64,000 nt of DNA, taken from positions 1,801,547 through 1,865,546 of the forward strand of contig CM020618.1 in the NCBI GenBank assembly GCA_009829735.1, read 5' to 3'. Positions 29,308 to 59,869 of the stretch are shown here, piece by piece. Each line of letters starts with the position of its first letter. Within the stretch, counting starts at the first letter, position 1. The notes below the pieces were generated by a model. It was not told the DNA's origin and ran no database searches. It saw only the letters and a program-made list of their open reading frames with translations. Made by a program: the position numbers and the translations under genes. The DNA comes from Pyropia yezoensis. Lineage: Eukaryota; Rhodophyta; Bangiophyceae; Bangiales; Bangiaceae.

Positions 29308-29312
29308 GGCAG

Positions 29313-35788: not shown

Positions 35789-36151
35789 TGTAGCAATATG
35801 GTTGACCGTATTATGACCCTAATGTTAGGGGGGCTACTTCTAATCCTTGGCTTTCAATTTGAGAGTCCGTACTGGTCACGGTATCTGCAAGTTACGTATG
35901 ACCAGAGGGACTTGCATCTTGGGGTGGAGGGTAGTTAGTAGTGTCTCCGAGGGCTTATAACGAGGGGGCCGGCGGCGAATCCACCGCCGGCCAAGGTAGA
36001 ACAACAAACCCCTCCCATTTGGGCTCCCATCTTGGTCCCGTGGCTTGTGCTCCAAGGACAGCAACCTTGGCCTCCCGGTGACGTTGGTGCCGATCCCCCT
36101 TGGTGAGTGTTCCCTGAGAGTGGACGTGCGACGGATTCCTATTGTGCTACA
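35789..36151 (+). repeat. 5' LTR of B1
   Basis: 363 bp with inverted ends TGTAGCA and TGCTACA. It contains a TATA-like GGCTTATAACGAGG near 35955 and a GCCGGCGG/CCGCCGGC inverted repeat just after it. Confidence 0.93.
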
Positions 36152-36152
36152 T

Positions 36153-36170
36153 TGGTGGAGCAGCAGGGGA
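36153..36170 (+). other. Primer-binding site of B1
   Basis: The shared TGGTGGAGCAGCAGGGGA, one base inside the LTR. Confidence 0.88.
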
Positions 36171-36376
36171 CGGGTTTCCGTCACCCTTGTGGTGACGCCG
36201 TCTTCGGCCCTGGCACACGGATAGGGATCCGGTCCTTTTCTTGTACTCGTGGTGTTGCGACCTGATCGATTGTGTTGAGTTTTTACCTTTGACTGTGATC
36301 TACTGTTACCCTCCCCAATCTACCCCCTCGCTCTCTTATTCGTGGTGATTGTTACGTCGGTTGACTGATTGTGACT

Positions 36377-36811
36377 ATGTCTACCCAAGAGACGGGGAAC
36401 GTTCAAGATGACGGATCGGCGTCGACGCCGACTCCGGAGGTGACTACGGGAACCGGGATCGGGAACCCGATCGATAACATTGAGACGCCAATGCTTTCCG
36501 GTGCCGGATCGACGTTTGGCACGGCTCCGACGGCAGGAGGCGGGGGCCCGCCTCAACTGTCGTCGACCGACCTCACTCCGCCGCCTCCTTCACCAGGGGA
36601 TTCCCTGATGGCATCATTGGCCCGCATCGAGGCCCGGTTTTCCGGGCTCGACGCCCGTCAAGATCGGACGGAGGACGCAATGGCAGTGTTGATGTCAACA
36701 CGGCACACGACGGGACCCCGTCGTGTTCCTCCCACACCGGTACGGTTCGAACCGGCCGGACTACTTTCGGAGTCCACCAGGGTCAACCCCGGTGTTGCTA
36801 CTCCTGGATAA
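36377..36811 (+). CDS. Short leading ORF of family B
   Basis: 144 residues, MSTQETGNVQDDG at the start, Thr/Pro/Gly-rich, with a short helical stretch MASLARIEARFSGLDARQDR. It precedes gag by 12 bases and is the same in B2, so it is part of the family layout. I do not recognise it. It could be an N-terminal Gag-like segment or a leader peptide affecting gag translation. Confidence 0.6.
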   Translation: MSTQETGNVQDDGSASTPTPEVTTGTGIGNPIDNIETPMLSGAGSTFGTAPTAGGGGPPQLSSTDLTPPPPSPGDSLMASLARIEARFSGLDARQDRTEDAMAVLMSTRHTTGPRRVPPTPVRFEPAGLLSESTRVNPGVATPG

Positions 36812-36823
36812 CCCCCGGACACA

Positions 36824-38560
36824 ATGGGGTATGGGTCCGACTCGTCGGCAGAGTTGGAACGGAGTCACACGGAGCGATACGCTCGGAGCACCCGAAGCGG
36901 ACTCCGCGGACACGACCCGGCGGATACGTACGCCGGGGGAGAGTCGGTTTTTGGGGGAGGAGGTACCCTCTCGCAGTACCCCCACGACGAAGGAGGCCAG
37001 GCAACTCGGGTTCCCGAGGTGCCGACGCCTGAAGTACCATCTTCAGTGGTGGAAGCTATGACCGCGCAGGTAACTGCGAGCCTACTGAAGCGGATGGAGT
37101 CCGATGAGTTCGCTCATCAACTGGCTAAGCGACTGGATATCCAGGACGCTGACACGGAGATCGTCAACGAGGTCTTCCGGTCGGTTCTTACTCCGGAACG
37201 TTATCGATTGGAGGACCGCTCTACCACCGTATCGGAATCGATGCGTAATACGTCGCATCGGGCGATCCGCTCTATGCAGACCCTTATGAAGGGAGTCCCT
37301 ATGTTCGGGGGGCCGAACGGACGCCCGTTGGCAGTCATCGGCTTCTTGACTAGCTTCAAGGCAGCCGCAGACAAGGCGCTCGTTAACGAGGGGCTGGCCC
37401 TGGAGATCCTCCCGTTCTTTGTTGATGAACGGGTGCGAGGCATTCTTCGCCAGGCATCCCCGATGCCGGGAATGAGGGTCGCGGCCACCCCCATGGATTA
37501 CCGTGGGATATTGAAGGAGCTGCTGAGCAGCTACCTCAGTGAGGACAAGTGCGAGGACCACTATCGGGCCCTTCGCACTGGCACCGCCCAGTCCTGGGAG
37601 GATGAGGAGATGTTTGGACGCCGGATCCAAGAGCTCGCCTACGAGCTGGGGAAGCTCCTCGGAGAAGGGGAGCTACGGGCCATCCTGTTCGCAGGAGTAC
37701 CCAACTACGTGCGGATATCCGCACGGGGCGCCAACACGGCACGGACGAACTTCAGTCGACTGATGCATATGTGCAAGTCCCTAGGGGACGCATACCGGGT
37801 TCTACACCCGGAGTGTGCCTTGGCCCCGAAGCCCAAGGGTGAGGGAGGCAAGCCCAGTCTTACCCCGGTACCGAGGCAAGAGAAGGTGGAACGCAAGGCC
37901 GTACCAGTACTGGTGGCGACCGAACATACCCCTATTGGTGAGGATGACCCTCTAGTCTACCAACAGGGCCACCTGTTGCTACCGGCGACGCCGGTGATTG
38001 ATGAACACGGTACGGTAGCGTACATCGCCCCGGCTGGAACCCAGTTCCAGGTCAACGAAGGAACGGGACGGCGCGTCCCGTATGTGCGGACTACGGGGTA
38101 CTCTTCGGTGACGGGTAACCCTCACCAACCCTTGCCAACATGGGCGGTGCGCACGGAGGCACCTCCGCAGATTTCGGGCCGACCCAACCGGTTGGGGGAG
38201 TCCATGTTCCGGTTGACCCAAGGACCCAAGGCCTACCAGGGAGCAGGCACTCGGGCGCCCGAGGGAGGCAACCGCAGCTACGGGGCTACCCCGATGCGAC
38301 CTCAAGGGGGGACCGGCACGTCCGGGTGTATGTTGTGTGGGGATCCCCAGCACTCGGTGTCTTCCTGCCCACTCATCCCCGAGGAGTCTCGGCGGGCAGC
38401 GGCGCAACGCAAGGCATCCACCGGGGGGTATCCCGCCCGAGCACCCGGACCCGCACCGGGTAGGCAGCCAGCTCCAGGTGGAGTACTGGCCGTCGAGGGG
38501 GCACCTCCTCAGCCGGATGTCCCGGCGGACAGCACCCTACCAAGGGCGGGAAACGAGTAA
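36824..38560 (+). CDS. Family B Gag
   Basis: 578 residues from MGYGSDSSAELERS. A capsid-like helical domain spans about residues 70-330 (ASLLKRMESDEFAHQLAKRL, IGFLTSFKAAADKALVNEG, FGRRIQELAYELGKLLGEG). A CCHC knuckle CMLCGDPQHSVSSC is near 505, then a Pro/Ala-rich tail. Pol starts from its own ATG eight bases after the stop. This spacing suggests reinitiation rather than a frameshift. Confidence 0.88.
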   Translation: MGYGSDSSAELERSHTERYARSTRSGLRGHDPADTYAGGESVFGGGGTLSQYPHDEGGQATRVPEVPTPEVPSSVVEAMTAQVTASLLKRMESDEFAHQLAKRLDIQDADTEIVNEVFRSVLTPERYRLEDRSTTVSESMRNTSHRAIRSMQTLMKGVPMFGGPNGRPLAVIGFLTSFKAAADKALVNEGLALEILPFFVDERVRGILRQASPMPGMRVAATPMDYRGILKELLSSYLSEDKCEDHYRALRTGTAQSWEDEEMFGRRIQELAYELGKLLGEGELRAILFAGVPNYVRISARGANTARTNFSRLMHMCKSLGDAYRVLHPECALAPKPKGEGGKPSLTPVPRQEKVERKAVPVLVATEHTPIGEDDPLVYQQGHLLLPATPVIDEHGTVAYIAPAGTQFQVNEGTGRRVPYVRTTGYSSVTGNPHQPLPTWAVRTEAPPQISGRPNRLGESMFRLTQGPKAYQGAGTRAPEGGNRSYGATPMRPQGGTGTSGCMLCGDPQHSVSSCPLIPEESRRAAAQRKASTGGYPARAPGPAPGRQPAPGGVLAVEGAPPQPDVPADSTLPRAGNE

Positions 38561-38568
38561 GAGGAAGG

Positions 38569-41500
38569 ATGACCGGGGGGCGCTGGGGTTACCCAAGCAA
38601 GCCACCCCGGAGTACCGCGGGGAAAGCCCCACGGAGAGCGCGGTTGAGCCGACGCCGCATCAACCCCCGGGTACACCTTCCGGCCCCGACGACACGGCGT
38701 CAGGGGATTGATGACCAACCTCCAAGGTTGGGAGGAGAGGACGGGAAGCCCCGTCACGTGGAACCAGACAAGGGCCCTGTTCAGGATGCCCGAGCTACAC
38801 CGGATATCGGTGTAGGACATGTGTTGTTTACATTGGAGAACTTCAAGGTATCAGCCACACTGGGGGTTGACCCCCAGTCGACACGATCGTACTACCCTGT
38901 ACTGGACACAGGGGCTGGACCCAACCTTATCCGGAAGGATACCCTCCCGGACAAGTGGCTTCCACGAGTCAGAGTGACTCGGGGACCCACCATCAAGGAC
39001 GCGAATGGTCGACTCATTCGTACGACCGCAGCGATGTCGCTGCAGGTTACCATCGGGGATCTCACCACGGAAGTTGACTTCCTGGTATGTGAAACGCTAT
39101 CGGTGCCCTGCATACTGGGGTGCACCTTCATCAACGTTCACGTTGATGCAATCCGGCCAGGCCGGAGGACCGTCGAGCTTCAAGAAGCCGACGGGACGAA
39201 GCGAGGACACACGGCTATCGTCAGGGACCTGACGCTACAAGGAAGCCACGTTAACGTGGCTGAGGTGTACGCAAGCGTCGAGCCGAAGACACTTCGGTTG
39301 GCCAAGCGAACTCGCTTTGAGCCGTTGTCAGAGACAGTCCTCCCGGTTAACTGCGACCTCGCAGGCATCTGCAGAGTCCAGTCCAACCTACGGACGTACA
39401 AGCGCCATGGGTTGACCATGGCCAACGGTCTCATAGACCTCCCAGCAGGAGGGTCGTCCCTCCTAGTGATGGCGAACTATCGCCGTAAGGCAGTCACCCT
39501 CCCGAAGGGAACTATCCTCGGGATTGCCGAACTCTACGAAGGAGATATCCTTACCCCTGACAAGGAAGGTCAAGTGGAACCACTTGAAGTACTGGCGGTC
39601 GCCGAGACCACCGAGCGACAGCAACCCGACGACGGGAAGCCTAACCCATCGGCGGCTCCGGCGGACCTGCCGCCAAAGGACCAAGAGGCCTTGAAGGCAC
39701 TGGCCGAGGCTGACCTCGACCACCTTTCCCCTTCGGTAGCCGAAGGGGTACGACGGATGCTAAGAAAGCATGACGTTATGTGGACAGGCGGGGCCTTGGG
39801 GACCATTGGGGCAACCCAACATCGTATAGACCTGGTACCAGGCGCACGACCCGCCCGCTCACAACCGCACCGAGCGGGACCTATGCAACGAGAGATCGTT
39901 GATGGAGAAGTGAAGAGGATGAGTGAAGCTAAGGTGATCCGACCTTCGATGTCGGAATGGGGTGCCCCAGTCGTTATTGTGCCGAAGAAGGATCAAACTC
40001 CTCGGTTTTGCATCGATTATCGACGCCTCAACTTGGTTACCAAGAAGGACTCATACCCTTTAGCAAGGATGGATGAATGCATCGACTCCCTGGGGGAGGC
40101 TACGGTGTTTACCACCATCGACTGCAATGCCGGATACTGGCAGATCCCGGTGGCGGACGAGGATATCCCCAAGACGGCATTCGTCTGTCACAGTGGAGTG
40201 TACGAGTTCCTAAGGATGCCCTTCGGATTGTCCAACGCCCCCGCTACATTCCAGCGGGCTATCGACATCATACTGTCGGGGGTGAAGTGGCGTAACTGCC
40301 TAGTGTACCTCGATGACGTCATCGTCTTCTCGCGTAACATGGATGACCATGTACAACATGTTGACGAGGTACTTACCCTCTTGAGGAACGCCGGGGTAAC
40401 CCTGCGTCTGAAGAAGTGCGCCTTCTTCCAACAGACGGTCGAGTATCTGGGCCACCAGATAATCCCTGGTAAGCTAGGGGTACTCGAAGCCAATACCCGG
40501 GCACTCCGGGATGCCCGGTTCCCTAACACCCAGACGCAGCTCAAGAGCTTCCTGGGAAGGTGCAATGTATACCGACGGTTCGTCAAGGACTTCGCTCGGA
40601 TAGCTAAACCGTTAACGGTTCTTACGAGCAGTACCTTACCCAAGGTACTCCAACCCCCTTCGCCTAGCGAAGAGGAGGCATTCGAGTCGCTGAAGCGAGC
40701 CCTACTATCCCCACCCGTCCTTGCGTTACCGCATAGACGGGGTACCTTCGTCATCGATGTCGATGCGTGTGATACACAAGTGGGATGCACCCTGTTACAG
40801 GGAGAGACGTTGATCGGTACCGATAACGTTATCCCGGACCTACGTCCGGTAGGGTACTTCAGCCGGACACTCAACCCGGCTGAGCGGAACTATAGTGCCA
40901 CCGAGCGTGAATGCCTCGGAGTTATATGGGCAGTGCAACTGCTCCGTCCATACCTGGAGGGCTCCAGGTTCATCGTGAGGTCCGACCACGAACCCCTACG
41001 ATGGCTCCTCAACCTTGGTGACAAGGATTCCGATAGCCATGGGAGGCTAGCCCGATGGAGGCTGAAGATGGCCGAGCACGACTACCGCACGGTGTATAAG
41101 GCTGGGTCAACCCACCACCTCGGAGACGCGTTGTCTCGACTCGACACCCCGAGCGGGGATACCCGCCCGGTGGACGAGGACATCCCGGTGGTACCGGTGT
41201 GCATGGTGGGTAATGCTACCCAGGGTATGGCTGACCATACCATGGCACACCTTGCGTGCCCATTGACCCTCGCGGACTTCCGCGAGGCACAGGCCAACGA
41301 CGATGACTGTAGACGTCATCGTGCTAACCTCCTGGCCGGTACGGCCGGCATCTTCTCCGAGAACGAAGACGGACTCATATACCGGCGGGCACCCGCCGAT
41401 GGACGACATCAAGTCGTGGTTCCCGTGTCCTTACGGCAAGCCGTCATGGAACGAGAACATGAGAACCCTACAGCCGGACACCCGGGGGGTTCACGTATGT

Positions 41501-42828
41501 TCGCAGCAATGCGAAGGTTCTTCTACTGGCCAGCGATGGCCGTCGACGTGGTCGACCACATAAGGGGATGCCACCCCTGTGCACGTAACCGCATGAGCCT
41601 ACATAGGCAGGCGTCTGCCATGAAACTGTTCCCACCGGATGGGCCCAACGAGCAAGTCGCTATCGACATACTCGGGCCACTTCCGATAACGGAAGAAGGG
41701 AACAGGTACGTCCTGGTCATGTCTGACCGATTCACTAAGCTGTCAAGAGCGGCAGCCATCCCGAATGATACGGCATACACGATCATGAACGCAGTGGTTG
41801 ACCACTGGATCAGTGCATACGGAGTCATGAAGCAACTCCTCTCCGATAACGGAGCAAACCTTACGTCGGCATTCTGCACTAAGGTCCTGGGCATGTTCGG
41901 TATCGAACCACGTCGGGCATCCGACTACCACCCGCAGTCCAACGGGCAGGTGGAGCGGTTCAACCGCACCATCGTCAAGATGCTACAGTGCTACGTGGCA
42001 GAGCACACGAACACTTGGGACAGGCTTCTGTCCGTACTCACCCTGGCATACAATGCCAGGCCACATCGGAGCACAAACATTGCTCCGCTGGAGTGGGTCA
42101 TGCCACTAGGCGTCGGTAACCTGACGCTGCCACCCGGCAGGTGCACTCGGTATGATACACCGAAGGGCCGACCCGCCGAACGCATCCACCTAGCTTGGTT
42201 GGCCAAGCTATCGTGGATGATTCCTAAGCTCAAGGGTGCCCTTGACAGAACACAACTTCGGTACAAGAAGAACTTCGACGCCCGGCTACGGGTGCGCAAC
42301 GCAACCCTGGTAACAGGTGACTGGGTCTATATCAGACACCAGAAGTTCCGAGGGAACAAGCTTATGCAACCGGTCAAGGGACCGTACCAGTTCTTACACA
42401 GAGATGATCACTCTGTCATGCTGCTCTCCGATACGGAGATACAACGCATCAACATCAATGATGTGACACCTGCTCCGAAGCCGGAACAGCCTCAGCCGGT
42501 ACCGGCCGGGTTGCTACATGAAGCTCTTACAACCCACCGGTCAGATGACCCGGTGGGACCGGATGGGATTCCATACCAAGTAGAGAGCGTGGTCGGACAC
42601 ACCGACCCGGACCTACCAGGACCCTGGTACGTCAAGGTTATGTGGGTTGGATACGACTCACCCACCTGGGAACAGGCGGCAAATATACCCCGCCAACTCC
42701 TCATGCCTTACATGAGGCGACGACGCCTACTCCAACAACCCAACCGACACCGACTTCGGCTGTTGGGCGGTGAGGCTTGTACCTACTCAGTAGGGTGTCA
42801 CATGGTTACGGCAGACTTAGGTTTCTAA
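38569..42828 (+). CDS. Family B Pol polyprotein with chromodomain
   Basis: 1419 residues in one open frame. Order: aspartic protease (VLDTGAGPNLIRK, Asp113), reverse transcriptase (FCIDYRRLN, FGLSNAPATFQRA, YLDDVIVFS near 580), RNase H (DVDACDTQVGC, TERECLGVIWA), then integrase. The integrase has a zinc-binding HPGGSRMFAAMRRFFYW with HPCARN, and a catalytic core with D near 1032 (DILGPLP), D near 1094 (LLSDNGANL) and E in QVERFNRT near 1128. A chromodomain closes it at about 1338-1384 (WYVKVMWVGYDSPTWEQAANI). This is the chromovirus arrangement, in which the chromodomain is thought to direct insertion to marked chromatin. It ends inside the first of the hairpin repeats. It looks whole. Confidence 0.95.
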   Translation: MTGGRWGYPSKPPRSTAGKAPRRARLSRRRINPRVHLPAPTTRRQGIDDQPPRLGGEDGKPRHVEPDKGPVQDARATPDIGVGHVLFTLENFKVSATLGVDPQSTRSYYPVLDTGAGPNLIRKDTLPDKWLPRVRVTRGPTIKDANGRLIRTTAAMSLQVTIGDLTTEVDFLVCETLSVPCILGCTFINVHVDAIRPGRRTVELQEADGTKRGHTAIVRDLTLQGSHVNVAEVYASVEPKTLRLAKRTRFEPLSETVLPVNCDLAGICRVQSNLRTYKRHGLTMANGLIDLPAGGSSLLVMANYRRKAVTLPKGTILGIAELYEGDILTPDKEGQVEPLEVLAVAETTERQQPDDGKPNPSAAPADLPPKDQEALKALAEADLDHLSPSVAEGVRRMLRKHDVMWTGGALGTIGATQHRIDLVPGARPARSQPHRAGPMQREIVDGEVKRMSEAKVIRPSMSEWGAPVVIVPKKDQTPRFCIDYRRLNLVTKKDSYPLARMDECIDSLGEATVFTTIDCNAGYWQIPVADEDIPKTAFVCHSGVYEFLRMPFGLSNAPATFQRAIDIILSGVKWRNCLVYLDDVIVFSRNMDDHVQHVDEVLTLLRNAGVTLRLKKCAFFQQTVEYLGHQIIPGKLGVLEANTRALRDARFPNTQTQLKSFLGRCNVYRRFVKDFARIAKPLTVLTSSTLPKVLQPPSPSEEEAFESLKRALLSPPVLALPHRRGTFVIDVDACDTQVGCTLLQGETLIGTDNVIPDLRPVGYFSRTLNPAERNYSATERECLGVIWAVQLLRPYLEGSRFIVRSDHEPLRWLLNLGDKDSDSHGRLARWRLKMAEHDYRTVYKAGSTHHLGDALSRLDTPSGDTRPVDEDIPVVPVCMVGNATQGMADHTMAHLACPLTLADFREAQANDDDCRRHRANLLAGTAGIFSENEDGLIYRRAPADGRHQVVVPVSLRQAVMEREHENPTAGHPGGSRMFAAMRRFFYWPAMAVDVVDHIRGCHPCARNRMSLHRQASAMKLFPPDGPNEQVAIDILGPLPITEEGNRYVLVMSDRFTKLSRAAAIPNDTAYTIMNAVVDHWISAYGVMKQLLSDNGANLTSAFCTKVLGMFGIEPRRASDYHPQSNGQVERFNRTIVKMLQCYVAEHTNTWDRLLSVLTLAYNARPHRSTNIAPLEWVMPLGVGNLTLPPGRCTRYDTPKGRPAERIHLAWLAKLSWMIPKLKGALDRTQLRYKKNFDARLRVRNATLVTGDWVYIRHQKFRGNKLMQPVKGPYQFLHRDDHSVMLLSDTEIQRININDVTPAPKPEQPQPVPAGLLHEALTTHRSDDPVGPDGIPYQVESVVGHTDPDLPGPWYVKVMWVGYDSPTWEQAANIPRQLLMPYMRRRRLLQQPNRHRLRLLGGEACTYSVGCHMVTADLGF

Positions 42829-42902
42829 GTCAAATCAGACTTAGGTTTCTAAGTCGAACCAAGCTTAGGTAACTAAGTAGAGCCAAGCTTAGGTAACTAA
42901 GT
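42814..42902. repeat. Four tandem palindromic repeats after B1 pol
   Basis: Two units GACTTAGGTTTCTAAGTC and two units AGCTTAGGTAACTAAGT, spaced about 24 bases. Each can fold into a six-base stem (ACTTAG/CTAAGT or CTTAG/CTAAG) with a tiny loop. The first overlaps the end of pol. Confidence 0.85.
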
Positions 42903-42980
42903 GAATCCTGAACCTTAATAAGTTAACTTAAAAGGTAAAGGCTAACTCCGATGATATTGAAGTAACTAGAAAGCTTACAA

Positions 42981-43032
42981 GGGAGGATAACCTCCCCAAG
43001 CCAAGACACAAAGTAAGGGAGGATGACCTCCC
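42981..43032. repeat. Two GGGAGG hairpins
   Basis: GGGAGGATAACCTCCC at 42981 and GGGAGGATGACCTCCC at 43017, each a perfect six-base stem with a four-base loop. They lie between the ends of pol and the convergent antisense ORF, together with the four palindromes upstream. Confidence 0.85.
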
Positions 43033-43412
43033 CAAGCAAGAACCAACCGGAAGAAGTTGGACGGGAGGCAAGGCACCACTGAGCCAGAAGGGGTACTCCC
43101 CAGGGCAGCAAACAGAGGCAAGCAATGCCCCCAAAGGGGATGAGTTTATACTCACTACTACCCGGCCACCATAAGGGTCACCGCGGCCCTCTCCCGCACT
43201 CACAATAGCGCTCCTCAGTGGGTAGACCCACTGCCCGAGGGAGGCCACTCACGCGTAATCGCGTATACCTCCGTGCTCCACCGGTCGGCAACCTCACGAC
43301 GGTCAATCTCCCGAGTTCCCTCGATGCATAGCTGAACGAGGGTGCTGCGGCCAGCCTCCACGTCCTCCAGAGCTCTCTGGAGGCGGTCAAGCACGCCACC
43401 GAAGCAACGCGC

Positions 43413-45042
43413 TCACCCAACCAGCGCAGCACCTGGGGAGATTTCCCCCCAGCTGACAGAGAGACCCCCACGCATTGCGCGGGTAACAAGGGCGTCAACG
43501 CCCTCGTACCAGAGACGGGGACCCCCGTCATGTAGGACAGGGGCGGGAGGTGACACTGGCGCAGCCAGAGGAGCCACATGAGCCGACACGGCCACCACCG
43601 GAGCCGGTGGCGCCTGATATGAGGCCCGGTAGGACCCCACCGAAGGGGCTCCACCGTAACCCCGGCGGGGCTCCGCCCGACGACGGGACACCTCACGCTC
43701 CCCACCCGCAGAGCCCCACTCTCGGGGACGACGGCCAACCGCCGCCGGTATCGGGTTACCGAACCACGGGGCAAGGACCTGAAGAGGGTCATGGATAACC
43801 ATGGGAATACCCAGGTCAGCAACAGCCTCGGTGGACGCCCACCCATGGCAACTGGGCTCACCCGGCTGAGTACGCCGGATACGCAACGAGTGACGAGGCA
43901 AGGGGTAAGCCCCAGCCTGCGGATCCCGGTACAGGGGAAGGGCCAACACCCCAGCCCAGTTCACGGCATCGTGAACAGCCAGCAGGGCCTCGAACTCCCG
44001 GGCCAACCCGGTCTTGGCGGCTATCAGGTCCACGCCCAACTGCGCGATGTGCCGAAGGACACCCGTCGGAAGATGAAACAGGCGCCCCTGCCGGCGGACG
44101 GACAGCAAGATGGAGGAAGCCTGCCCGAGGGTAACCTCAAGGGTGAAGGTACCCTGCAACGGGTGGACCGGCCGTGAGGCCAACACACTCCCGAAGTATC
44201 GGAGACAGGAACCGGTGTCAAACCGGAAAGCAGGGGCGGGTTCCCACCCCTCCTGCCACAGAGGCGGGCGCACGGGAGTGTATACCGGCGCACGACCGTT
44301 GCCGGTCTGCAACGCACACGTTATATCGGTGCGGAACGCATCCGCCATGACACCCTGGTTACGTCGCCAGCTCGACGCCGACTTCAAACTCGCCATAGGC
44401 GGGTAGGGAGCCGTCAACGACAGATACGGGGAAACCCCCGGGTAATAATCGAAGTCGGGATACCGACCGGTGTCGCCCACCGTCTCCCCAAACGCAACCG
44501 GCTCCGCCGCCGCCGCGATCCCCCGTGCACTAGCCGGGTAGTCAACCTCCCGCGGCAACGCGGGAGCAATCAGGTCGCATACCCCGAAGGCGGGGTCAGG
44601 GTAGACCTCACCCCGCCCCACCTGGGTGCGCCAGAGCTGAGCATGCCGGTCGTCCGGCTGACTCAGGATCCAATGGTGTTCCACCCGCACCGCGTTCGGC
44701 TGGTTGACCAGCCGCACCAACTCCCGCTCCCAACTCGGGTCCACCTTGACGCGCCGGGAGGACTCTCCACGGGGATGGGGCAGGTGGAAGTCCACCCGCA
44801 TCCGCCCATCGGACTCCATTGACTCTTGCACAGTCAGGCCGCGAACCCGAGCCACCAAGTCGGACATCGACATGGCGGGTTGACCCGCCGCCACGGCGAC
44901 GCCGCCACCCAACGGGGCAACCCGGGCAGGACCAGGAAGAATCGGGGGCGCCGGGGGAAGCCCCACCGGCAGATGGACCGGTGCCGGAGGTGCACGGGGC
45001 CGAGGAGGAAGAAGAAGGGCGGGCGCCCGCCCGGAGTAACTA
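43413..45042 (-). CDS. Family B antisense ORF, C-terminal part (B1), cut by B2
   Basis: An open minus-strand frame of about 540 codons, opposite to gag-pol, lies between pol and the 3' LTR. It begins in this piece at SGRAPALLLPPRP and runs through a conserved block MSDLVARVRGLTVQESM, DGRMRVDFHL, VRVEHHWILSQPDDRHAQLW, YPDFDYYPG and FRFDTGSCLRYFGSVLASR to a Pro/Ala-rich end. The B2 copy (57788-56009) encodes the same protein with many silent or mild changes, which argues for past selection on the protein. No known domain was recognised. B2 is inserted in it, so this copy is broken. Confidence 0.75.
45038..45042. repeat. Target-site duplication AACTA, left copy (B2)
   Basis: AACTA directly before LTR 45043-45405 and again directly after LTR 58376-58739 (58740-58744). 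This pairs these LTRs as the two ends of B2. Confidence 0.88.
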
Positions 45043-45405
45043 TGTAGCAATATGGTTGTCCGTATTGTGACCCTAATATTAGGGGGGCTACTTCTAATCC
45101 TTAACTTTCAATTTGAGAGTCCGTACTGAACACGGTATCTATAAGTTACGTATGACCAGAGGGACTTGCATCTTGGGGTGGAGGGTAGTTAGTAGTGTCT
45201 CCGAGGGTTTATAACGAGGGGGCCGGTGGCGAATCCACCGCCGGCCAAGGTAGAACAACAAACCCCTCCCATTTGGGCTCCCATCTTGGTCCCGTGGCTT
45301 GCGCTCCAAGGACAGCAACCTTGGCCTCCCGGTGACGTTGGTGCCGATCCCCCTTGGTGAGTGTTCCCTGAGAGTGGACGTGCGACGGATTCCTATTGTG
45401 CTACA
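45043..45405 (+). repeat. 5' LTR of B2
   Basis: 363 bp, ends TGTAGCA and TGCTACA, followed by the standard primer-binding site at 45407-45424. It is closer to the LTR at 58376 than to the B1 LTRs (shared TTGTCCGT and CCTTAACTTT variants). Confidence 0.93.
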
Positions 45406-45630
45406 TTGGTGGAGCAGCAGGGGACGGGTTTCCGTCACCCTTGTGGTGACGCCGTCTTCGGCCCTGGCACACGGATAGGGATCCGGTCCTTTTCTTGTAC
45501 TCGTGGTGTTGCGACCTGATCGATTGTGTTGAGCTTCTACCTGTGACTGTGACCTACTGTTACTCTCCCCAATCTACCCCCTCGCTCTCGTATTCGTGGT
45601 GATCGTTGCGTCGGTTGACTGATTGTGACT

Positions 45631-47718
45631 ATGTCTACCCAAGAGACGGGGAACGTTCAAGATGACGGATCGGCGTCGACGCCGACTCCGGAGGTGACTA
45701 CGGGAACCGGGATCGGGAACCCGATCGATAACATTGAGACGCCAATGCTTTCCGGTGCCGGATCGACGTTTGGCACGGCTCCGACGGCAGGAGGCGGGGG
45801 CCCGCCTCAACTGTCGTCGACCGACCTCACTCCGCCGCCTCCTTCACCAGGGGATTCCCTGATGGCATCATTGGCCCGCATCGAGGCCCGGTTTTCCGGG
45901 CTCGACGCCCGTCAAGATCGGACGGAGGACGCAATGGCAGTGTTGATGTCAACACGGCACACGACGGGACCCCGTCGTGTTCCTCCCACACCGGTACGGT
46001 TCGAACCGGCCGGACTACTTTCGGAGTCCACCAGGGTCAACCCCGGTGTTGCTACTCCTGGATAACCCCCGGACACAATGGGGTATGGGTCCGACTCGTC
46101 GGCAGAGTTGGAACGGAGTCACACGGAGCGATACGCTCGGAGCACCCGAAGCGGACTCCGCGGACACGACCCGGCGGATACGTACGCCGGGGGAGAGTCG
46201 GTTTTTGGGGGAGGAGGTACCCTCTCGCAGTACCCCCACGACGAAGGAGGCCAGGCAACTCGGGTTCCCGAGGTGCCGACGCCTGAAGTACCATCTTCAG
46301 TGGTGGAAGCTATGACCGCGCAGGTAACTGCGAGCCTACTGAAGCGGATGGAGTCCGATGAGTTCGCTCATCAACTGGCTAAGCGACTGGATATCCAGGA
46401 CGCTGACACGGAGATCGTCAACGAGGTCTTCCGGTCGGTTCTTACTCCGGAACGTTATCGATTGGAGGACCGCTCTACCACCGTATCGGAATCGATGCGT
46501 AATACGTCGCATCGGGCGATCCGCTCTATGCAGACCCTTATGAAGGGAGTCCCTATGTTCGGGGGGCCGAACGGACGCCCGTTGGCAGTCATCGGCTTCT
46601 TGACTAGCTTCAAGGCAGCCGCAGACAAGGCGCTCGTTAACGAGGGGCTGGCCCTGGAGATCCTCCCGTTCTTTGTTGATGAACGGGTGCGAGGCATTCT
46701 TCGCCAGGCATCCCCGATGCCGGGAATGAGGGTCGCGGCCACCCCCATGGATTACCGTGGGATATTGAAGGAGCTGCTGAGCAGCTACCTCAGTGAGGAC
46801 AAGTGCGAGGACCACTATCGGGCCCTTCGCACTGGCACCGCCCAGTCCTGGGAGGATGAGGAGATGTTTGGACGCCGGATCCAAGAGCTCGCCTACGAGC
46901 TGGGGAAGCTCCTCGGAGAAGGGGAGCTACGGGCCATCCTGTTCGCAGGAGTACCCAACTACGTGCGGATATCCGCACGGGGCGCCAACACGGCACGGAC
47001 GAACTTCAGTCGACTGATGCATATGTGCAAGTCCCTAGGGGACGCATACCGGGTTCTACACCCGGAGTGTGCCTTGGCCCCGAAGCCCAAGGGTGAGGGA
47101 GGCAAGCCCAGTCTTACCCCGGTACCGAGGCAAGAGAAGGTGGAACGCAAGGCCGTACCAGTACTGGTGGCGACCGAACATACCCCTATTGGTGAGGATG
47201 ACCCTCTAGTCTACCAACAGGGCCACCTGTTGCTACCGGCGACGCCGGTGATTGATGAACACGGTACGGTAGCGTACATCGCCCCGGCTGGAACCCAGTT
47301 CCAGGTCAACGAAGGAACGGGACGGCGCGTCCCGTATGTGCGGACTACGGGGTACTCTTCGGTGACGGGTAACCCTCACCAACCCTTGCCAACATGGGCG
47401 GTGCGCACGGAGGCACCTCCGCAGATTTCGGGCCGACCCAACCGGTTGGGGGAGTCCATGTTCCGGTTGACCCAAGGACCCAAGGCCTACCAGGGAGCAG
47501 GCACTCGGGCGCCCGAGGGAGGCAACCGCAGCTACGGGGCTACCCCGATGCGACCTCAAGGGGGGACCGGCACGTCCGGGTGTATGTTGTGTGGGGATCC
47601 CCAGCACTCGGTGTCTTCCTGCCCACTCATCCCCGAGGAGTCTCGGCGGGCAGCGGCCGCAACGCAAGGCATCCACCGGGGGGTATCCCGCCCGAGCACC
47701 CGGACCCGCACCGGGTAG
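45631..47718 (+). pseudogene. B2 leading ORF and gag
   Basis: The leading ORF (from 45631) and gag (from 46078) are base-for-base almost the same as in B1, including the CCHC knuckle. The leader just upstream and the LTR differ by several percent. Gag is not whole at its far end. Confidence 0.85.
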
Positions 47719-47823
47719 GCAGCCAGCTCCAGGTGGAGTACTGGCCGTCGAGGGGGCACCTCCTCAGCCGGATGTCCCGGCGGACAGCACCCTACCAAGG
47801 GCGGGAAACGAGTAAGAGGAAGG

Positions 47824-50800
47824 ATGACCGGGGGGCGCTGGGGTTACCCAAGCAAGCCACCCCGGAGTACCGCGGGGAAAGCCCCACGGAGAGCGCGGTT
47901 GAGCCGACGCCGCATCAACCCCCGGGTACACCTTCCGGCCCCGACGACACGGCGTCAGGGGATTGATGACCAACCTCCAAGGTTGGGAGGAGAGGACGGG
48001 AAGCCCCGTCACGTTGAACCAGACAAGGGCCCTGTTCAGGATGCCCGAGCTACACCGGATATCGGTGTAGGACATGTGTTGTTTACATTGGAGAACTTCA
48101 AGGTATCAGCCACACTGGGGGTTGACCCCCAGTCGACACGATCGTACTACCCTGTACTGGACACAGGGGCTGGACCCAACCTTATCCGGAAGGATACCCT
48201 CCCGGACAAGTGGCTTCCACGAGTCAGAGTGACTCGGGGACCCACCATCAAGGACGCGAATGGTCGACTCATTCGTACGACCGCCAGCGATGTCGCTGCA
48301 GGTTACCATCGGGGATCTCACCACGGAAGTTGACTTCCTGGTATGTGAAACGCTATCGGTGCCCTGCATACTGGGGTGCACCTTCATCAACGTTCACGTT
48401 GATGCAATCCGGCCAGGCCGGAGGACCGTCGAGCTTCAAGAAGCCGACGGGACGAAGCGAGGACACACGGCTATCGTCAGGGACCTGACGCTACAAGGAA
48501 GCCACGTTAACGTGGCTGAGGTGTACGCAAGCGTCGAGCCGAAGACACTTCGGTTGGCCAAGCGAACTCGCTTTGAGCCGTTGTCAGAGACAGTCCTCCG
48601 GTTAACTGCGACCTCGCAGGCATCTGCAGAGTCCAGTCCAACCTACGGACGTACAAGCGCCATGGGTTGACCATGGCCAACGGTCTCATAGACCTCCCAG
48701 CAGGAGGGTCGTCCCTCCTAGTGATGGCGAACTATCGCCGTAAGGCAGTCACCCTCCCGAAGGAACTATCCTCGGATTGCCGAACTCTACGAAGGAGATA
48801 TCCTTACCCCTGACAAGGAAGGTCAAGTGGAACCACTTGAAGTACTGGCGGTCGCCGAGACCACCGAGCGACAGCAACCCGACGACGGGAAGCCTACCCA
48901 TCGCGGCTCCGGCGGACCTGCCGCCAAAGGACCAAGAGGCCTTGAAGGCACTGGCCGAGGCTGACCTCGACCACCTTTCCCCTTCGGTAGCCGAAGGGTA
49001 CGACGGATGCTAAGAAAGCATGACGTTATGTGGACAGGCGGGGCCTTGGGGACCATTGGGGCAACCCAACATCGTATAGACCTGGTACCAGGCGCACGAC
49101 CCGCCCGCTCACAACCGCACCGAGCGGGACCTATGCAACGAGAGATCGTTTGATGGAGAAGTGAAGAGGATGAGTGAAGCTAAGGTGATCCGACCTTCGA
49201 TGTCGGAATGGGGTGCCCCAGTCGTTATTGTGCCGAAGAAGGATCAAACTCCTCGGTTTTGCATCGATTATCGACGCCTCAACTTGGTTACCAAGAAGGA
49301 CTCATACCCTTTAGCAAGGATGGATGAATGCATCGACTCCCTGGGGGAGGCTACGGTGTTTACCACCATCGACTGCAATGCCGGATACTGGCAGATCCCG
49401 GTGGCGGACGAGGATATCCCCAAGACGGCATTCGTCTGTCACAGTGGAGTGTACGAGTTCCTAAGGATGCCCTTCGGATTGTCCAACGCCCCCGCTACAT
49501 TCCAGCGGGCTATCGACATCATACTGTCGGGGGTGAAGTGGCGTAACTGCCTAGTGTACCTCGATGACGTCATCGTCTTCTCGCGTAACATGGATGACCA
49601 TGTACAACATGTTGACGAGGTACTTACCCTCTTGAGGAACGCCGGGGTAACCCTGCGTCTGAAGAAGTGCGCCTTCTTCCAACAGACGGTCGAGTATCTG
49701 GGCCACCAGATAATCCCTGGTAAGCTAGGGGTACTCGAAGCCAATACCCGGGCACTCCGGGATGCCCGGTTCCCTAACACCCAGACGCAGCTCAAGAGCT
49801 TCCTGGGAAGGTGCAATGTATACCGACGGTTCGTCAAGGACTTCGCTCGGATAGCTAAACCGTTAACGGTTCTTACGAGCAGTACCTTACCCAAGGTACT
49901 CCAACCCCCTTCGCCTAGCGAAGAGGAGGCATTCGAGTCGCTGAAGCGAGCCCTACTATCCCCACCCGTCCTTGCGTTACCGCATAGACGGGGTACCTTC
50001 GTCATCGATGTCGATGCGTGTGATACACAAGTGGGATGCACCCTGTTACAGGGAGAGACGTTGATCGGTACCGATAACGTTATCCCGGACCTACGTCCGG
50101 TAGGGTACTTCAGCCGGACACTCAACCCGGCTGAGCGGAACTATAGTGCCACCGAGCGTGAATGCCTCGGAGTTATATGGGCAGTGCAACTGCTCCGTCC
50201 ATACCTGGAGGGCTCCAGGTTCATCGTGAGGTCCGACCACGAACCCCTACGATGGCTCCTCAACCTTGGTGACAAGGATTCCGATAGCCATGGGAGGCTA
50301 GCCCGATGGAGGCTGAAGATGGCCGAGCACGACTACCGCACGGTGTATAAGGCTGGGTCAACCCACCACCTCGGAGACGCGTTGTCTCGACTCGACACCC
50401 CGAGCGGGGATACCCGCCCGGTGGACGAGGACATCCGGTGGTACCGGTGTGCATGGTGGGTAATGCTACCCAGGGTATGGCTGACCATACCATGGCACAC
50501 CTTGCGTGCCCATTGACCCTCGCGGACTTCCGCGAGGCACAGGCCAACGACGATGACTGTAGACGTCATCGTGCTAACCTCCTGGCCGGTACGGCCGGCA
50601 TCTTCTCCGAGAACGAAGACGGACTCATATACCGGCGGGCACCCGCCGATGGACGACATCAAGTCGTGGTTCCCGTGTCCTTACGGCAAGCCGTCATGGA
50701 ACGAGAACATGAGAACCCTACAGCCGGACACCCGGGGGGTTCACGTATGTTCGCAGCAATGCGAAGGTTCTTCTACTGGCCAGCGATGGCCGTCGACGTG

Positions 50801-51622
50801 GTCGACCACATAAGGGGATGCCACCCCTGTGCACGTAACCGCATGAGCCTACATAGGCAGGCGTCTGCCATGAAACTGTTCCCACCGGATGGGCCCAACG
50901 AGCAAGTCGCTATCGACATACTCGGGCCACTTCCGATAACGGAAGAAGGGAACAGGTACGTCCTGGTCATGTCTGACCGATTCACTAAGCTGTCAAGAGC
51001 GGCAGCCATCCCGAATGATACGGCATACACGATCATGAACGCAGTGGTTGACCACTGGATCAGTGCATACGGAGTCATGAAGCAACTCCTCTCCGATAAC
51101 GGAGCAAACCTTACGTCGGCATTCTGCACTAAGGTCCTGGGCATGTTCGGTATCGAACCACGTCGGGCATCCGACTACCACCCGCAGTCCAACGGGCAGG
51201 TGGAGCGGTTCAACCGCACCATCGTCAAGATGCTACAGTGCTACGTGGCAGAGCACACGAACACTTGGACAGGCTTCTGTCCGTACTCACCCTGGCATAC
51301 AATGCCAGGCCACATCGGAGCACAAACATTGCTCCGCTGGAGTGGGTCATGCCACTAGGCGTCGGTAACCTGACGCTGCACCCGGCAGGTGCACTCGGTA
51401 TGATACACCGAAGGGCCGACCCGCCGAACGCATCCACCTAGCTTGGTTGGCCAAGCTATCGTGGATGATTCCTAAGCTCAAGGGTGCCCTTGACAGAACA
51501 CAACTTCGGTATAAGAAGAACTTCGACGCCCGACTACGGGTGCGCAACGCAACCCTGGTAACAGGTGACTGGGTCTAAAACAGACACCAGAAGTTCCGAG
51601 GGAACAAGCTATGCAACCGGTC
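47824..51622 (+). pseudogene. B2 pol remnant, running into the gap
   Basis: Protease, RT, RNase H and integrase segments are nearly identical to B1 pol and in the same order. The chromodomain end is lost in the gap. It is broken in several places. Confidence 0.85.
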
Positions 51623-52122
51623 NNNNNNNNNNNNNNNNNNNNNNNNNNNNNNNNNNNNNNNNNNNNNNNNNNNNNNNNNNNNNNNNNNNNNNNNNNNNNN
51701 NNNNNNNNNNNNNNNNNNNNNNNNNNNNNNNNNNNNNNNNNNNNNNNNNNNNNNNNNNNNNNNNNNNNNNNNNNNNNNNNNNNNNNNNNNNNNNNNNNNN
51801 NNNNNNNNNNNNNNNNNNNNNNNNNNNNNNNNNNNNNNNNNNNNNNNNNNNNNNNNNNNNNNNNNNNNNNNNNNNNNNNNNNNNNNNNNNNNNNNNNNNN
51901 NNNNNNNNNNNNNNNNNNNNNNNNNNNNNNNNNNNNNNNNNNNNNNNNNNNNNNNNNNNNNNNNNNNNNNNNNNNNNNNNNNNNNNNNNNNNNNNNNNNN
52001 NNNNNNNNNNNNNNNNNNNNNNNNNNNNNNNNNNNNNNNNNNNNNNNNNNNNNNNNNNNNNNNNNNNNNNNNNNNNNNNNNNNNNNNNNNNNNNNNNNNN
52101 NNNNNNNNNNNNNNNNNNNNNN
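51623..52122. other. Assembly gap of 500 N
   Basis: The round size suggests a placeholder. On the left is B2 integrase on the plus strand; on the right is C2 pol on the minus strand. The rest of B2 pol and of C2 should lie here, several kb more than 500 bases. Confidence 0.95.
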
Positions 52123-53478
52123 GAGAGTCCAGACAGTCATCCATCCGAGGTAGGGGATAACTATCCTTCACCGTGCTCTCGTTTGAGCTTACGGTAGTCG
52201 ATACAGAGCCGGGGGTCCCATCAACTTTGGGGACGATCACCACCGGACTCGCCCACTCGGCGTTTGCTGGCCTCGATCACATCGAGGGCCTCCATGCGAG
52301 CAACTTGCTCCTTAACGAGGGCCCTTGAACGGGGTCCCCCCCTATACGGTTGTTGGCGTATAGGGGGCGCACCGGGTTTCAACTCGATCCGGTGTTGGGT
52401 AGCTCTCATGAGTCCCAATTGACCATCCCACAACTTGTGATATTGGTCCAAGAGGCGTTCAACTTGAACCCTCAACCTGGGTGGAACACCCTCCATGTTT
52501 ACCTGGGGCCGAGGAGAGGCGGCCGACTTGGCTTGATGCTTCTCCTTTCCGGACTTCGGGTCGCTACTTGCGCCCGCGCTGAGGGTGACCGCTACTACCG
52601 GTCCCTCGTGTTGGTCGATATAGCCGAACTTGGCCCCCGACTTGAAGAACTTGGGCGACGAGCTCAGGTTCATCACCTGGATCCTCCACGGGACTCCGGC
52701 TTTGGAGTCCATCGTGCCAAGGGCAACATGCACTTGGTGCTTGCGAGCAAGACGGGGGTTAGGGTGCACCAACCCGTTCCCCGCATAATCAGTTACAACA
52801 TCCACGTGCGCCACCGAGTTGGGGGGCAACATGACTTTACGGGCTAAACGCAGAGTAGCAGTAAACCCTTCCCTCACAGAACAAACAGGCCTTCGACTGT
52901 GAGACTGTCACAGGAGCCACAGACTTTCCCTTACCAAGGATGGGGATAGTCTCCCCATTCATCAACTTGACCCAGTACTCAGGGCCACAAATCAAAGGCA
53001 CTTGTGTTACGACATAAGGGGTACCCAGAAGCAGGGGTACCGATATGTTCTCAACTACACCATAGGTCACGTCGACCTCATGGGTCCCCAACCGAGTTGG
53101 TAGGGTCACGGCACCAACGATGGGAAGTACCCCACCATTGATATCGATCAGATGGTCAGCTTTAGACTTCCAGCGTTGGAGCCTCATCCCCTTTGGTAAT
53201 AGCGACTTGCGTATCAAGGAGGCTCCTGACCCGGTATCAAGTACGATACGGACACAACAGGCGCGGCCGGGGGCAAGTTGCACCCGTCCAGCCACCTGGA
53301 AGTTCTCACCCGTCAGCACCGCGATGACCCGACGTTGGTTTACGTTCTTGGGAAGTCCCACCCGAGGTGGGCGGACTCCCTTAGGTCGCCGCAGTATCCG
53401 ACACGGTTGGTTCGTCCTCTTGGCCCACTTGGCCGAGGCTGCCGTTGTGAGCTTCGGACGACCAGCTCCAACGGTCAT
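52123..53478 (-). pseudogene. C2 pol, protease to RT
   Basis: Starts MTVGAGRPKLT with ATGA overlap to gag, as in C1. Protease motif VLDTGSGASLIRK is present, as is the uninterrupted target region of B1 (PPIRQQPYRGGPRSR). It then runs into RT and the gap and is not fully open. Confidence 0.85.
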
Positions 53479-55421
53479 TCGTTTCCCGCCGACTTGGCGT
53501 CCGAATCTGAGGGCGAAGGGGACGACGACGAGTCCGAGGACGACGTGTCCGCCCCCTCCGTCGAGGGTGTGGCGACCGCCACCACTGGTCGAGACCCACC
53601 CTCGCGGCGTGAACGCACTTCGTTCGTAGCCGACTTCTTACTCGCATTCCTAACAAGCTGTTGGATGCGTTTACTTAACTTGGGGCAATCATATGCCCAG
53701 TGACCATCGGAGTTGCAGTTCCAACACCGATGATCAGTTCCCGGAGGGGTCTTCCCAACTGGGGAAGACGACGAGGTACCTTGGGAAGCTCCCACGGCAG
53801 CTACCACCCTCTCCTTGCGGATTCGGCGTGCCTCTCGCAACTCTCTGGCCTGGCGCGCCTCTTCCCGTTCCTTGGCCAACTCGGCCTGACGCTCCTGGCG
53901 TTGTTCCTCCCGCAACTTGCGGTAGGCCTCGCCTCTGCGGTAGGCGAACCTAGCCAACTCGGCCAGGGTCGCCCGGGCAGTGTTATGCTCCCGGGTCTCC
54001 ATCCGGACTGACCAGTGGAGTCCTTCCACAAACCGACTCTTCACCACAGCTTGTGGATGAAGAAACCCACAAAGATTGTTGAGCTTACGGACTCGCTCCG
54101 CAAAGGACAACTCGTCCTCCGCCTCTTCCTGATGGGCTTGCGTAAACTCCTCGACTTGAGAAGCCAACGCCGCTTCATCAACCATGGCCCTCAACAACCA
54201 GTTGACGAGCTCCAAATAGGACGTCACCTCCCCAGCGCCTCCACTTGAGGAGCTGGGCATGACGGACATAAGTTCTGTCCGCAGGTCTCCCTTCGTAAAC
54301 TCCTGTAGCATGTAAAAAGCCATGCCTTCACTTATGGCATTGTCGTCACAGGCTTTTGTGAAACGACGTAGGAACTCAAAGACACGGAGGGGGGGAGTTC
54401 CATCCCACTCCGCTTTGTGCCCAAAAGAGTGAAGTGCGTTCTTCTTGGCACGGCCCATGGCTCGGGCCTGGTCAGGACCATACGCCACCGACTTGTTGTG
54501 GAGGGCGTAGGTCTCACAGTCAAAGATCCTCTGGTAGACCGGGTTGGCTACCTGGATCTTGGGCGGCACCTCACGTTGAGGGAACAGCCGCTGTGGCACT
54601 GGGGTAAGTTCACCCACAGTGCCTGTAGTCCGGCGCGGCGCGCTTGGTGTAGCCGCCGGTGTTGTCGGGGGGGACTCCCCCATGAAGGGCGTACGCCCCA
54701 CCGAGTATGGTGTGGCTCCCTCGTTGGGAGTCACAGGGGTCGCCCCCTGTTCAGGGCGACCCGAGATAGGTGTCAGGGGGGGCACCCCCTGCGCCTGCGG
54801 GCTCGAAAGCCCCAATCCGGTCTGGACATTAAGGCCATCTGGCAAACTCGCCACAATCTGATTCAGAATAGTATTCGTCATCGTGACCACCAGGTCCGGC
54901 AAAGTCTGCCGCAACACAGTGGTCGCCTCCCGACGGACAGTTTCCGCGAGGAGTGGATTGACGACTCCAGTTGAGTCTCGGTCCACCTCCGGGAGTCCAC
55001 CTGAGGGGTAACCACGTTCCTCAGGGGTCTCAACCGGGGGCATGGGCGCGAGCCCATCGCCGACCAACGGAGGTCCGCCGTCCTCCGAAAGCCTAGTTGG
55101 CGATGGCTCCATGCCAAAGTTGGCTCCAACCCGAGTGGAACTCGCGGGGACAGTCCTCACCCCTTGGGACTTTCCCGTTGAGTATACCACGCGGTGGCCA
55201 GACTTCGGCCCACCCACGTCAGAAGTGTCACCCGAGTGAACTCCCGACTGAGTCGGGGTGGCCTGTTGCCCGCCCGCACTTCCAGTCCTGCTGGCTTGAG
55301 GGACCTCTAGTCCCTCTGCGACCCCAGGTAAACCCACCTGTGTCTCACCAGTATTCAAAGGCACTGAAGTACGTGCGTCACCCGTGTACTCCCCGGACGA
55401 CGGGGGGTCCGAGCTAGCCAT
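53475..55421 (-). CDS. Family C Gag (C2)
   Basis: 648 residues, the same length and layout as C1 gag with scattered substitutions (MASSDPPSSGEYTGD, CCHC knuckle CWNCNSDGHWAYDC, charged coiled-coil helix). Retention of length and frame in two diverged copies indicates recent activity of family C. Confidence 0.88.
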   Translation of the reverse strand: MASSDPPSSGEYTGDARTSVPLNTGETQVGLPGVAEGLEVPQASRTGSAGGQQATPTQSGVHSGDTSDVGGPKSGHRVVYSTGKSQGVRTVPASSTRVGANFGMEPSPTRLSEDGGPPLVGDGLAPMPPVETPEERGYPSGGLPEVDRDSTGVVNPLLAETVRREATTVLRQTLPDLVVTMTNTILNQIVASLPDGLNVQTGLGLSSPQAQGVPPLTPISGRPEQGATPVTPNEGATPYSVGRTPFMGESPPTTPAATPSAPRRTTGTVGELTPVPQRLFPQREVPPKIQVANPVYQRIFDCETYALHNKSVAYGPDQARAMGRAKKNALHSFGHKAEWDGTPPLRVFEFLRRFTKACDDNAISEGMAFYMLQEFTKGDLRTELMSVMPSSSSGGAGEVTSYLELVNWLLRAMVDEAALASQVEEFTQAHQEEAEDELSFAERVRKLNNLCGFLHPQAVVKSRFVEGLHWSVRMETREHNTARATLAELARFAYRRGEAYRKLREEQRQERQAELAKEREEARQARELREARRIRKERVVAAVGASQGTSSSSPVGKTPPGTDHRCWNCNSDGHWAYDCPKLSKRIQQLVRNASKKSATNEVRSRREGGSRPVVAVATPSTEGADTSSSDSSSSPSPSDSDAKSAGNE

Positions 55422-55540
55422 GTTGGCTAACGATCCGTATGACACGGTCCAAGTCCACCGTTCCTCTGAGACAGAGGGCCCCCTACACCCGGGTGCACCC
55501 GGAGGTAAAGTTTACCTCTGTCCCCTGCTGCTCCACCAAA

Positions 55541-56008
55541 TGTGGCAAAAACCACTCGCACACACGGTACCCAAGTTGGGGCGGTGTGCGAGGGCTGCCT
55601 CCCGTGTCGGGGGAACCGGAAGAAGTGCAAGTCGCACACACTCGATCCCTGTTGTGGGGCAATCCCCCCACGGACAAACAAGAAGATGGTGTGTGGTCCA
55701 ACAGTTTCTTGGTCGGGACGGGGACGCAGGGCCAAGCCCCGCTGTCCCTCCCCTTATCCCCCCAGGGTCCACTCAGAATCTCGCCACTCAGAATCTCCCA
55801 CCCCAGCACCTGCCCACCGGGCCACACGAAAATTCAAGACGATAAATGCAGAAAACCCTCAAATCCAAGTTGGATTTACTACTAAGCTAACTATCCCGAA
55901 CTTAGGGAATATGGACCCAAATGCAGGGGGAGGAACGGATCAGGTTAGTGGCCTGCCGCCCCTTGCATGGCACGTGTTGCCCCCTACCTGGGGGTCAATA
56001 CTGCCACA
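55541..56008 (-). repeat. 5' LTR of C2
   Basis: 468 bp, inverted ends TGTGGCA and TGCCACA, with the shared primer-binding site at 55521-55538 on the minus strand. Confidence 0.88.
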
Positions 56009-58363: not shown

Positions 58364-58373
58364 AAGGGGGGGA
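58364..58373 (+). other. Polypurine tract of B2
   Basis: AAGGGGGGGA two bases before the LTR, the expected plus-strand primer site. The same occurs in B1 at 59858-59867. Confidence 0.85.
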
Positions 58374-58375
58374 TA

Positions 58376-59286: not shown

Positions 59287-59390
59287 GATGACCGGGGTAG
59301 CAGGGGCGCCCCGTGCAGAAAAGCCGAGGCCGGCTCGACCCGGTACAGAGAACGCTCGCACGGACGAGCCAGGGAAGCGCGGGCACCCGC

Positions 59391-59867: not shown

Positions 59868-59869
59868 TA

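Follow-up and report, generated by a model that had tools for sequence, protein, structure and literature searches.

Antisense genes of LTR-retrotransposons

Antisense ORFs situated between pol and the 3' LTR (aORF-3R) have been described for plant Ty3/gypsy elements, namely maize Grande (gene23), rice RIRE2, Silene Retand (ORF4) and PvRetro13 (PMC7264820). Gene23 of Grande possesses its own promoter and encodes a nuclear protein, and the roles of antisense genes of LTR-retrotransposons are given as undetermined in the same review (PMC7264820). The Ty3/gypsy element Boty of Botrytis cinerea also has an ORF in this position and orientation (PMC7264820), while LTR elements of bdelloid rotifers carry exchanged, modular third ORFs that are common to diverse elements (PMC5408684).

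Analysis of the window (the whole stretch of 64,000 nucleotides of Pyropia yezoensis examined here) showed that an antisense gene of a Ty3/gypsy family, designated family B, resembles the plant aORF-3R as these are described in that it occupies the interval from pol to the 3' LTR in reverse orientation, occurs in many copies and is conserved like the other proteins of the element. The comparison with Grande and RIRE2 drawn in the first-pass annotation was therefore apt, the host being a red alga and no land plant. Besides this difference in host, the TRP28 domain (PF04195) gave no match up to an E-value of 10 in any of the eight Pyropia members scanned. Furthermore, the Retand lineage is non-chromoviral (PMC11963269), whereas the Pyropia pol has a weak chromodomain match, and diverged gene types on a nearly common backbone were found in Pyropia, with no mention of such types in the parts of the plant aORF-3R accounts consulted (PMC7264820, PMC11963269). 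Boty, as described, is like the Pyropia element in being a non-plant element of the same layout, with a fungal host. In the bdelloid elements the ORF types are described as unrelated enzymes or env (PMC5408684), whereas those of Pyropia are strongly diverged homologous versions of one antisense gene.

The Pyropia gene can also be set beside a retroviral one, for which sequence similarity is not expected. HBZ of HTLV-1 is a gene transcribed in antisense from the 3' side of the provirus, and the N-terminal part of its protein is acidic. It is like the Pyropia gene in both layout and acidic N-terminus, but differs in that the promoter-like box of Pyropia lies within the internal region and not in the LTR. 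Deltaretroviruses (HTLV-1 HBZ) are named among the elements having antisense genes in PMC11963269.

Nested elements in the window

A younger Ty3-type element was found to sit within the antisense gene of an older one. The features of this region are as follows (family A being another Ty3-type family).

35789 to 36151, plus strand: 5' LTR of the outer B element (363 bp), ends read from the sequence, 9 differences in 363 positions to its own 3' LTR
36824 to 38560, plus strand: gag-like ORF of the outer B element, 578 amino acids, named gag by position
38569 to 42828, plus strand: pol ORF of the outer B element, with protease, RT, RNase H, integrase and a weak C-terminal chromodomain match
43413 to 45042, minus strand: main piece of the antisense gene of the outer element (type b1), ended by a nonsense codon at 43413-43415, with the homologous frame continuing to approximately 43218
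45043 to 58739, plus strand: inner B element, inserted in the outer antisense gene, with LTRs at 45043-45405 and 58376-58739 and the duplication AACTA
52123 to 56008, minus strand: part of a family A element, inserted in the inner antisense gene, breakpoint 56009 taken from the match to copy L060
56009 to 57788, minus strand: type b2 antisense gene belonging to the inner element; its start codon is at 57788, and the family A insertion has cost it the C-terminal part
57889 to 57894, minus strand: CATAAG promoter-like box, by comparison, approximately 100 nt upstream of the inner start codon
58076 to 58375, minus strand: block of approximately 300 nt adjoining the polypurine tract, column conservation 0.92-0.99 across 56 loci
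58740 to 59286, minus strand: N-terminal piece of the outer antisense gene, interrupted by two in-frame stops
59392 to 59398, minus strand: TTATAAG promoter-like box, by comparison, approximately 106 nt upstream of the outer start codon
59870 to 60232, plus strand: 3' LTR of the outer B element, with a polypurine tract ahead of it

The boundaries were set by comparison with an uninterrupted copy (L004), of which positions 1500-4626 correspond to 45042-41891 of the window and positions 11-1504 to 60232-58740. A five-base overlap, AACTA, flanks the inner element and was read as a target duplication. Together, these matches identify the outer element as 35789-45042 plus 58740-60232, and the inner as 45043-58739. 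The LTR of B elements is 363 bp in length and starts with TGTAGCAATATGG; those of the inner element have two differences in 363 compared positions. The outer B element itself lies within another family A element and has GGGGG on either side, which is consistent with a target duplication, ambiguous within a G run. A gap of 500 Ns (51623-52122) lies beside the family A piece that truncates the inner antisense gene.

The domain order of pol identified with Pfam was protease (residues 111-189, just under the cut-off at 25.2 versus 28.2 bits), RT (471-631), RNase H (726-836) and integrase (951-1122), which is that of Ty3/gypsy elements (Metaviridae). The C-terminal chromodomain match (PF00385) was below threshold, with an E-value of 0.057 and 13.8 bits versus a cut-off of 25.1, and was absent from the hits when the whole of pol was scanned at E-values up to 1. 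No Pfam match above the cut-off was obtained for the gag-like ORF. The pol of the outer copy runs to 1419 residues, as the stop at residue 1389 found in 63 of 64 loci is missing here alone (window 42735-42828).

The first-pass annotation had placed the antisense ORF between the chromodomain and the 3' LTR. For the family as such this layout holds. However, the LTR at 45043 belongs to the insert as its 5' LTR, and the chromodomain is a weak match; the true 3' LTR of the ORF-bearing element is that at 59870-60232, with the N-terminal gene piece resuming at 58740-59286.

Elsewhere in the window, inverted copies of a third Ty3-type family, 85-87% alike, were observed at 1-3710 and 27061-30767, with a frame in the gag position and with RT and protease domains in the second of these. 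The regions 7538-9700 and 6001-10000 have a GC content of 82-83% and very long overlapping frames on both strands, the longest plus-strand frame being without a Pfam match. The following host genes were also identified.

10049 to 11692, minus strand: MoeA-like molybdopterin enzyme
15800 to 16639, plus strand: frame with an ATP synthase subunit C domain
19270 to 20364, minus strand: TLC-domain protein
21304 to 23142, plus strand: adaptor/coatomer medium-subunit domain protein

Extent and integrity of the antisense frame

The reported ORF of over 500 codons was recovered as a minus-strand frame of 545 open codons at 43413-45050. A second copy had been said to keep the same frame (57788-56009); the frame is indeed open there, with the qualification that the gene type differs (b2 versus b1), and this copy is truncated at 56008 by the minus-strand family A element. 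Both ends of the window ORF are accidents of this copy, namely an insertion and a private stop, with the stop at 43413 found in the window copy only among 60 copies compared. The N-terminal piece of the outer copy contains two more in-frame stops. In less damaged copies the ATG start is situated approximately 590 nt from the LTR and the frame encodes 789 amino acids.

The gene frame was free of stops in 42 of the 60 copies, while none of the other five frames was stop-free in any copy (minimum of five stops per copy). In-frame stops were present in the remaining 18 copies (14/45 of b1, 1/12 of b2 and 3/3 of b3), most of them occurring in one copy and a few being common to two. Long frames are common in this composition, as dinucleotide shuffles of 42829-45042 averaged 201 codons, and to this extent a chance open frame in GC-rich DNA could be considered. 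However, none of 2000 shuffles reached 541 codons on either strand (maximum 461), thus indicating that the ORF length is unusual even so. With the selection described below and the cross-species homology at 44-53% identity also against it, the probability of a chance frame is negligible, and this candidate was rejected on selection.

Layout and copy number across the genome

Like an aORF-3R, the antisense gene runs counter to gag-pol and occupies the space from pol to the 3' LTR. The pol tail was found beyond the gene end on the opposite strand in all 64 loci compared, and an LTR beyond the gene start in 63 (all except L041; in the window copy, L001, the LTR is that of the insert). These loci are the best matches to the gene and are not an unbiased sample of layouts.

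When the genome was searched with tags of 25 to 28 bases, up to two mismatches being allowed, the gene core was matched 861 times, the pol tail 941 times and the LTR-primer site junction 1044 times; reversed-pattern controls gave 0 matches. Among the first 100 pol tags listed, an exact gene tag was present on the expected side for 67, mostly at 1720-1760 bases (approximately 1.75 kb), and was missing from the expected position for 33; over the same stretch, 21 of 88 gene tags were unpaired. The antisense gene is thus present in most copies of the family. At approximately 10.7 kb per element, the family may account for up to a tenth of the genome if copies are complete.

Other arrangements of these sequences were also observed. 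Four antisense gene copies occur at a spacing of 3489 bases at C2:9880067-9892399 of P. yezoensis, and in locus L065 the LTR end joins straight to sequence that corresponds to the window from 43092 on, the junction lacking a primer binding site; the repeats and this junction together point to amplification of the gene plus LTR in tandem. LTR-primer site tags are evenly spaced at approximately 1.7, 2.0, 1.23 and 2.0 kb at C1:602952-611541, 833539-837620, 1498628-1507247 and 1581578-1585660, respectively, a regularity which suggests tandem arrays of short elements with the B LTR.

Selection on the encoded protein

The ratio of non-synonymous to synonymous change, proposed in the first-pass annotation as a check, was determined with Nei-Gojobori counts for 60 of the 64 loci, leaving out L055 (patchy match) and L003, L006 and L063 (match split in two). 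Values of dN/dS were 0.36 within b1 (990 pairs), 0.38 between b1 and b2, 0.27 between b1 and b3 (dN 0.210, dS 0.790), 0.30 within b2 and 0.29 between b2 and b3, with 0.57 within b3 being from three pairs only. Bootstrapping of a single pair, L004 (b1) against b3, gave 0.21-0.32. Neutral simulations with the observed base changes had means of 0.92-0.94 and a minimum of 0.63, so that the ratios between and within the main types (0.27-0.38) are well below neutral, and the contrast of 0.27 with 0.92-0.94 indicates that a translated protein is being kept. Constraint was strongest in the core at residues 401-500 (dN/dS of 0.05 and 0.10) and weak at residues 601-700 (up to 0.55 between b1 and b2). 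Constraint is weaker in the gene (0.27-0.38) than in the pol tail, for which the same loci gave ratios of 0.13-0.19 (62 of 64 loci, leaving out L055 and L013, which is cut short).

The distribution of variants over codon positions was also examined. Among 45 b1 copies, singletons fell evenly on the three positions (142/148/157; 295 replacement, 152 silent), while variants in at least three copies were skewed to the third (28/26/76; 55 replacement, 75 silent), as were the fixed differences between b1 and b3 (125/86/226). Even singletons with skewed common and fixed variants are predicted by selection during replication followed by neutrality after insertion. Singletons of b2 (12 copies) were already skewed (47/34/77), an imperfect fit to neutrality after insertion.

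An alternative is that the antisense RNA is what matters, in sense-antisense regulation, with the frame as a passenger; non-coding antisense transcripts do exist in some retroelements, according to the review cited above (PMC7264820). The codon-position skew, the low dN/dS (0.27) and the absence of stops from the frame in 42 of 60 copies nevertheless need translation, making this alternative very improbable, and a pure antisense RNA was rejected on selection. The existence of a functional protein gene is, by comparison, close to certain. This is an accessory gene of a high-copy Ty3/gypsy element, encoding a 789-amino-acid protein that is under selection while the element replicates. The earlier suggestion of an accessory protein gene is thus borne out by the purifying selection, by the constant layout in the loci read and by gene tags that are nearly as many as pol tags.

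Gene types and cassette exchange

Comparison of b1 and b3 showed that 20-33% of positions differ over most of the gene, while outside it the difference is 1-4% in the 160 bases beyond the gene and 1-5% near the LTR. At the gene end, divergence falls from 0.47 (L004:3310-3349) through 0.13 to 0.01 (3390-3429) within approximately 80 nt, the stop codon being at 3325-3327. This drop at the stop codon indicates transfer of the gene as a cassette. On the left side the transition is less abrupt and lies at approximately 680-800 of L004, upstream of the start codon (958). Between the two types, silent divergence is 0.79 in the gene versus 0.26 in the pol tail, and differing selection on the protein therefore cannot explain the jump. 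Type b2 is a mosaic, b3-like up to approximately 1510-1590 (L004 coordinates) and b1-like after. The gene, including a stretch upstream of the start codon, has been exchanged between elements as a cassette for b1, b2 and b3.

Further types exist in the same genome. The P. yezoensis locus C2:6021275 is 97% identical to protein P0016; with the same protein, loci C2:9543317 and C2:9532415 have 65% and 64% identity, and b1, b2 and b3 have 58-59%. These identities (58-65% where measured) imply that at least four deep gene lineages coexist in one genome; the evidence for cassettes covers b1, b2 and b3.

The fast divergence of the protein beside a conserved backbone, with types 58-65% alike in one genome and exchanged cassettes, is in keeping with a protein that counters host silencing, RNA- or chromatin-based, the diverged cassettes then reflecting an arms race or escape from recognition. 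As selection is purifying overall (ratios 0.27-0.38) and no similarity to a known suppressor was found, this role is considered rather unlikely. It is also conceivable, though doubtful, that promoter and frame form an exchangeable antisense module that elements swap through template switching since a type-specific interaction depends on the protein, for which self-recognition between copies, copy-number control and escape from host silencing would be candidates. If true, retrotransposons would have a counterpart of exchangeable specificity modules.

Upstream region and candidate promoter

Across the 56 loci that have both an LTR and a start codon, conservation is 0.92-0.99 over the 300 nt adjoining the polypurine tract. 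Approximately 115 nt upstream of the start codon a [C/T]ATAAG motif was identified, followed by a GC-rich inverted repeat. In raw counts, this box is present in 52 of the 56 loci (39/41 of b1, 12/12 of b2 and 1/3 of b3), while exact TATAAG is present in only 19 of 56. Judged by its sequence, the box is a candidate promoter of the antisense gene.

Protein features and relatives

The N-terminus of the protein is acidic, with a net charge of -15 in the first 50 residues. Gly, Ala, Pro and Ser are abundant as far as approximately residue 240 (linker), and an arginine-rich stretch is situated near residues 620-645. A membrane span is not likely, the highest mean hydropathy over 19 residues being 1.37.

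Three protein searches, each scoring the best approximately 8000 candidates by shared words, identified 23 distinct relatives, 12 named as hypothetical in the bangialean red alga Pyropia vietnamensis and 11 from other contigs. The first P. vietnamensis hits were 32-53% identical to the query. An acidic D-L-L-x-E-E stretch close to the start is also found in several P. vietnamensis proteins, and such similar beginnings support the assigned start codon. The idea of a captured gene, also raised in the first-pass annotation, is left without support, as among these best-scoring candidates relatives were found only in P. vietnamensis or other contigs.

With Pfam, only DUF6214 was matched, below the cut-off and in two of eight members scanned. 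A PDB profile search gave one match that is not meaningful (E-value of 0.81), and of 11 stretches of viral contigs fitting a pattern none encodes a relative. AlphaFold models of P. vietnamensis P0004 with nine rows (pLDDT 29.1) and of the window core with nine rows (28.3) provided no usable fold. Kinship with the own gag, the own pol and the family A gag was rejected at hhalign probabilities of 0.5, 0.1 and 0.1 percent, these being weak tests with few effective sequences and single targets. P0021 of P. vietnamensis (MMPV_000838) starts like the antisense gene and then resembles the family A gag by eye; it is probably a gene model spanning a nested insertion.

A structural or particle-associated factor encoded in antisense, either env-like or a second capsid protein, may also be weighed against these features. 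Env exchange occurs in retroviruses, and the cassette exchange could be likened to it. The position would also suit, since env-like ORFs lie between pol and the 3' LTR (PMC7264820). Against this, the gene is antisense and its product without a membrane span, which does not agree with an env-like third ORF, and the (weak) profile tests gave no similarity to the own gag, the own pol or the family A gag. Such a factor is thus judged distinctly unlikely.

Proposed function and significance

The acidic N-terminus, the Gly/Ala/Pro-rich linker, the arginine-rich stretch and the lack of a membrane span suit a regulator better than an envelope protein. There is about an even chance that the gene encodes an accessory, probably nuclear regulatory protein expressed from its own antisense promoter, as in maize Grande. 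Transcription would proceed toward pol from a promoter near the [C/T]ATAAG box, and the protein would act in the nucleus, regulating transcription, RNA export or integration of the element, as has been proposed for Grande gene23 and Retand. This reading of a nuclear regulator agrees with what PMC7264820 states on Grande and Retand, and likewise with the discussion in PMC11963269.

Among the papers listed by searches of open-licence literature, none gives an account of this gene or of a red algal retrotransposon antisense ORF in its title or at the start of its abstract. While antisense genes are known in some plant and fungal elements, novelty lies in the red algal host group (as far as the literature was checked), in the protein family, in the selection as measured and in the exchange of cassettes. 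The Pyropia gene represents an independent red algal case, in which purifying selection is confined to the replicating phase of the element and the antisense gene moves as a unit. Its approximately 860 tagged copies, its several naturally diverged versions, two of which have nearly the same backbone, and its homologs in another Pyropia species make the function testable by comparing versions.
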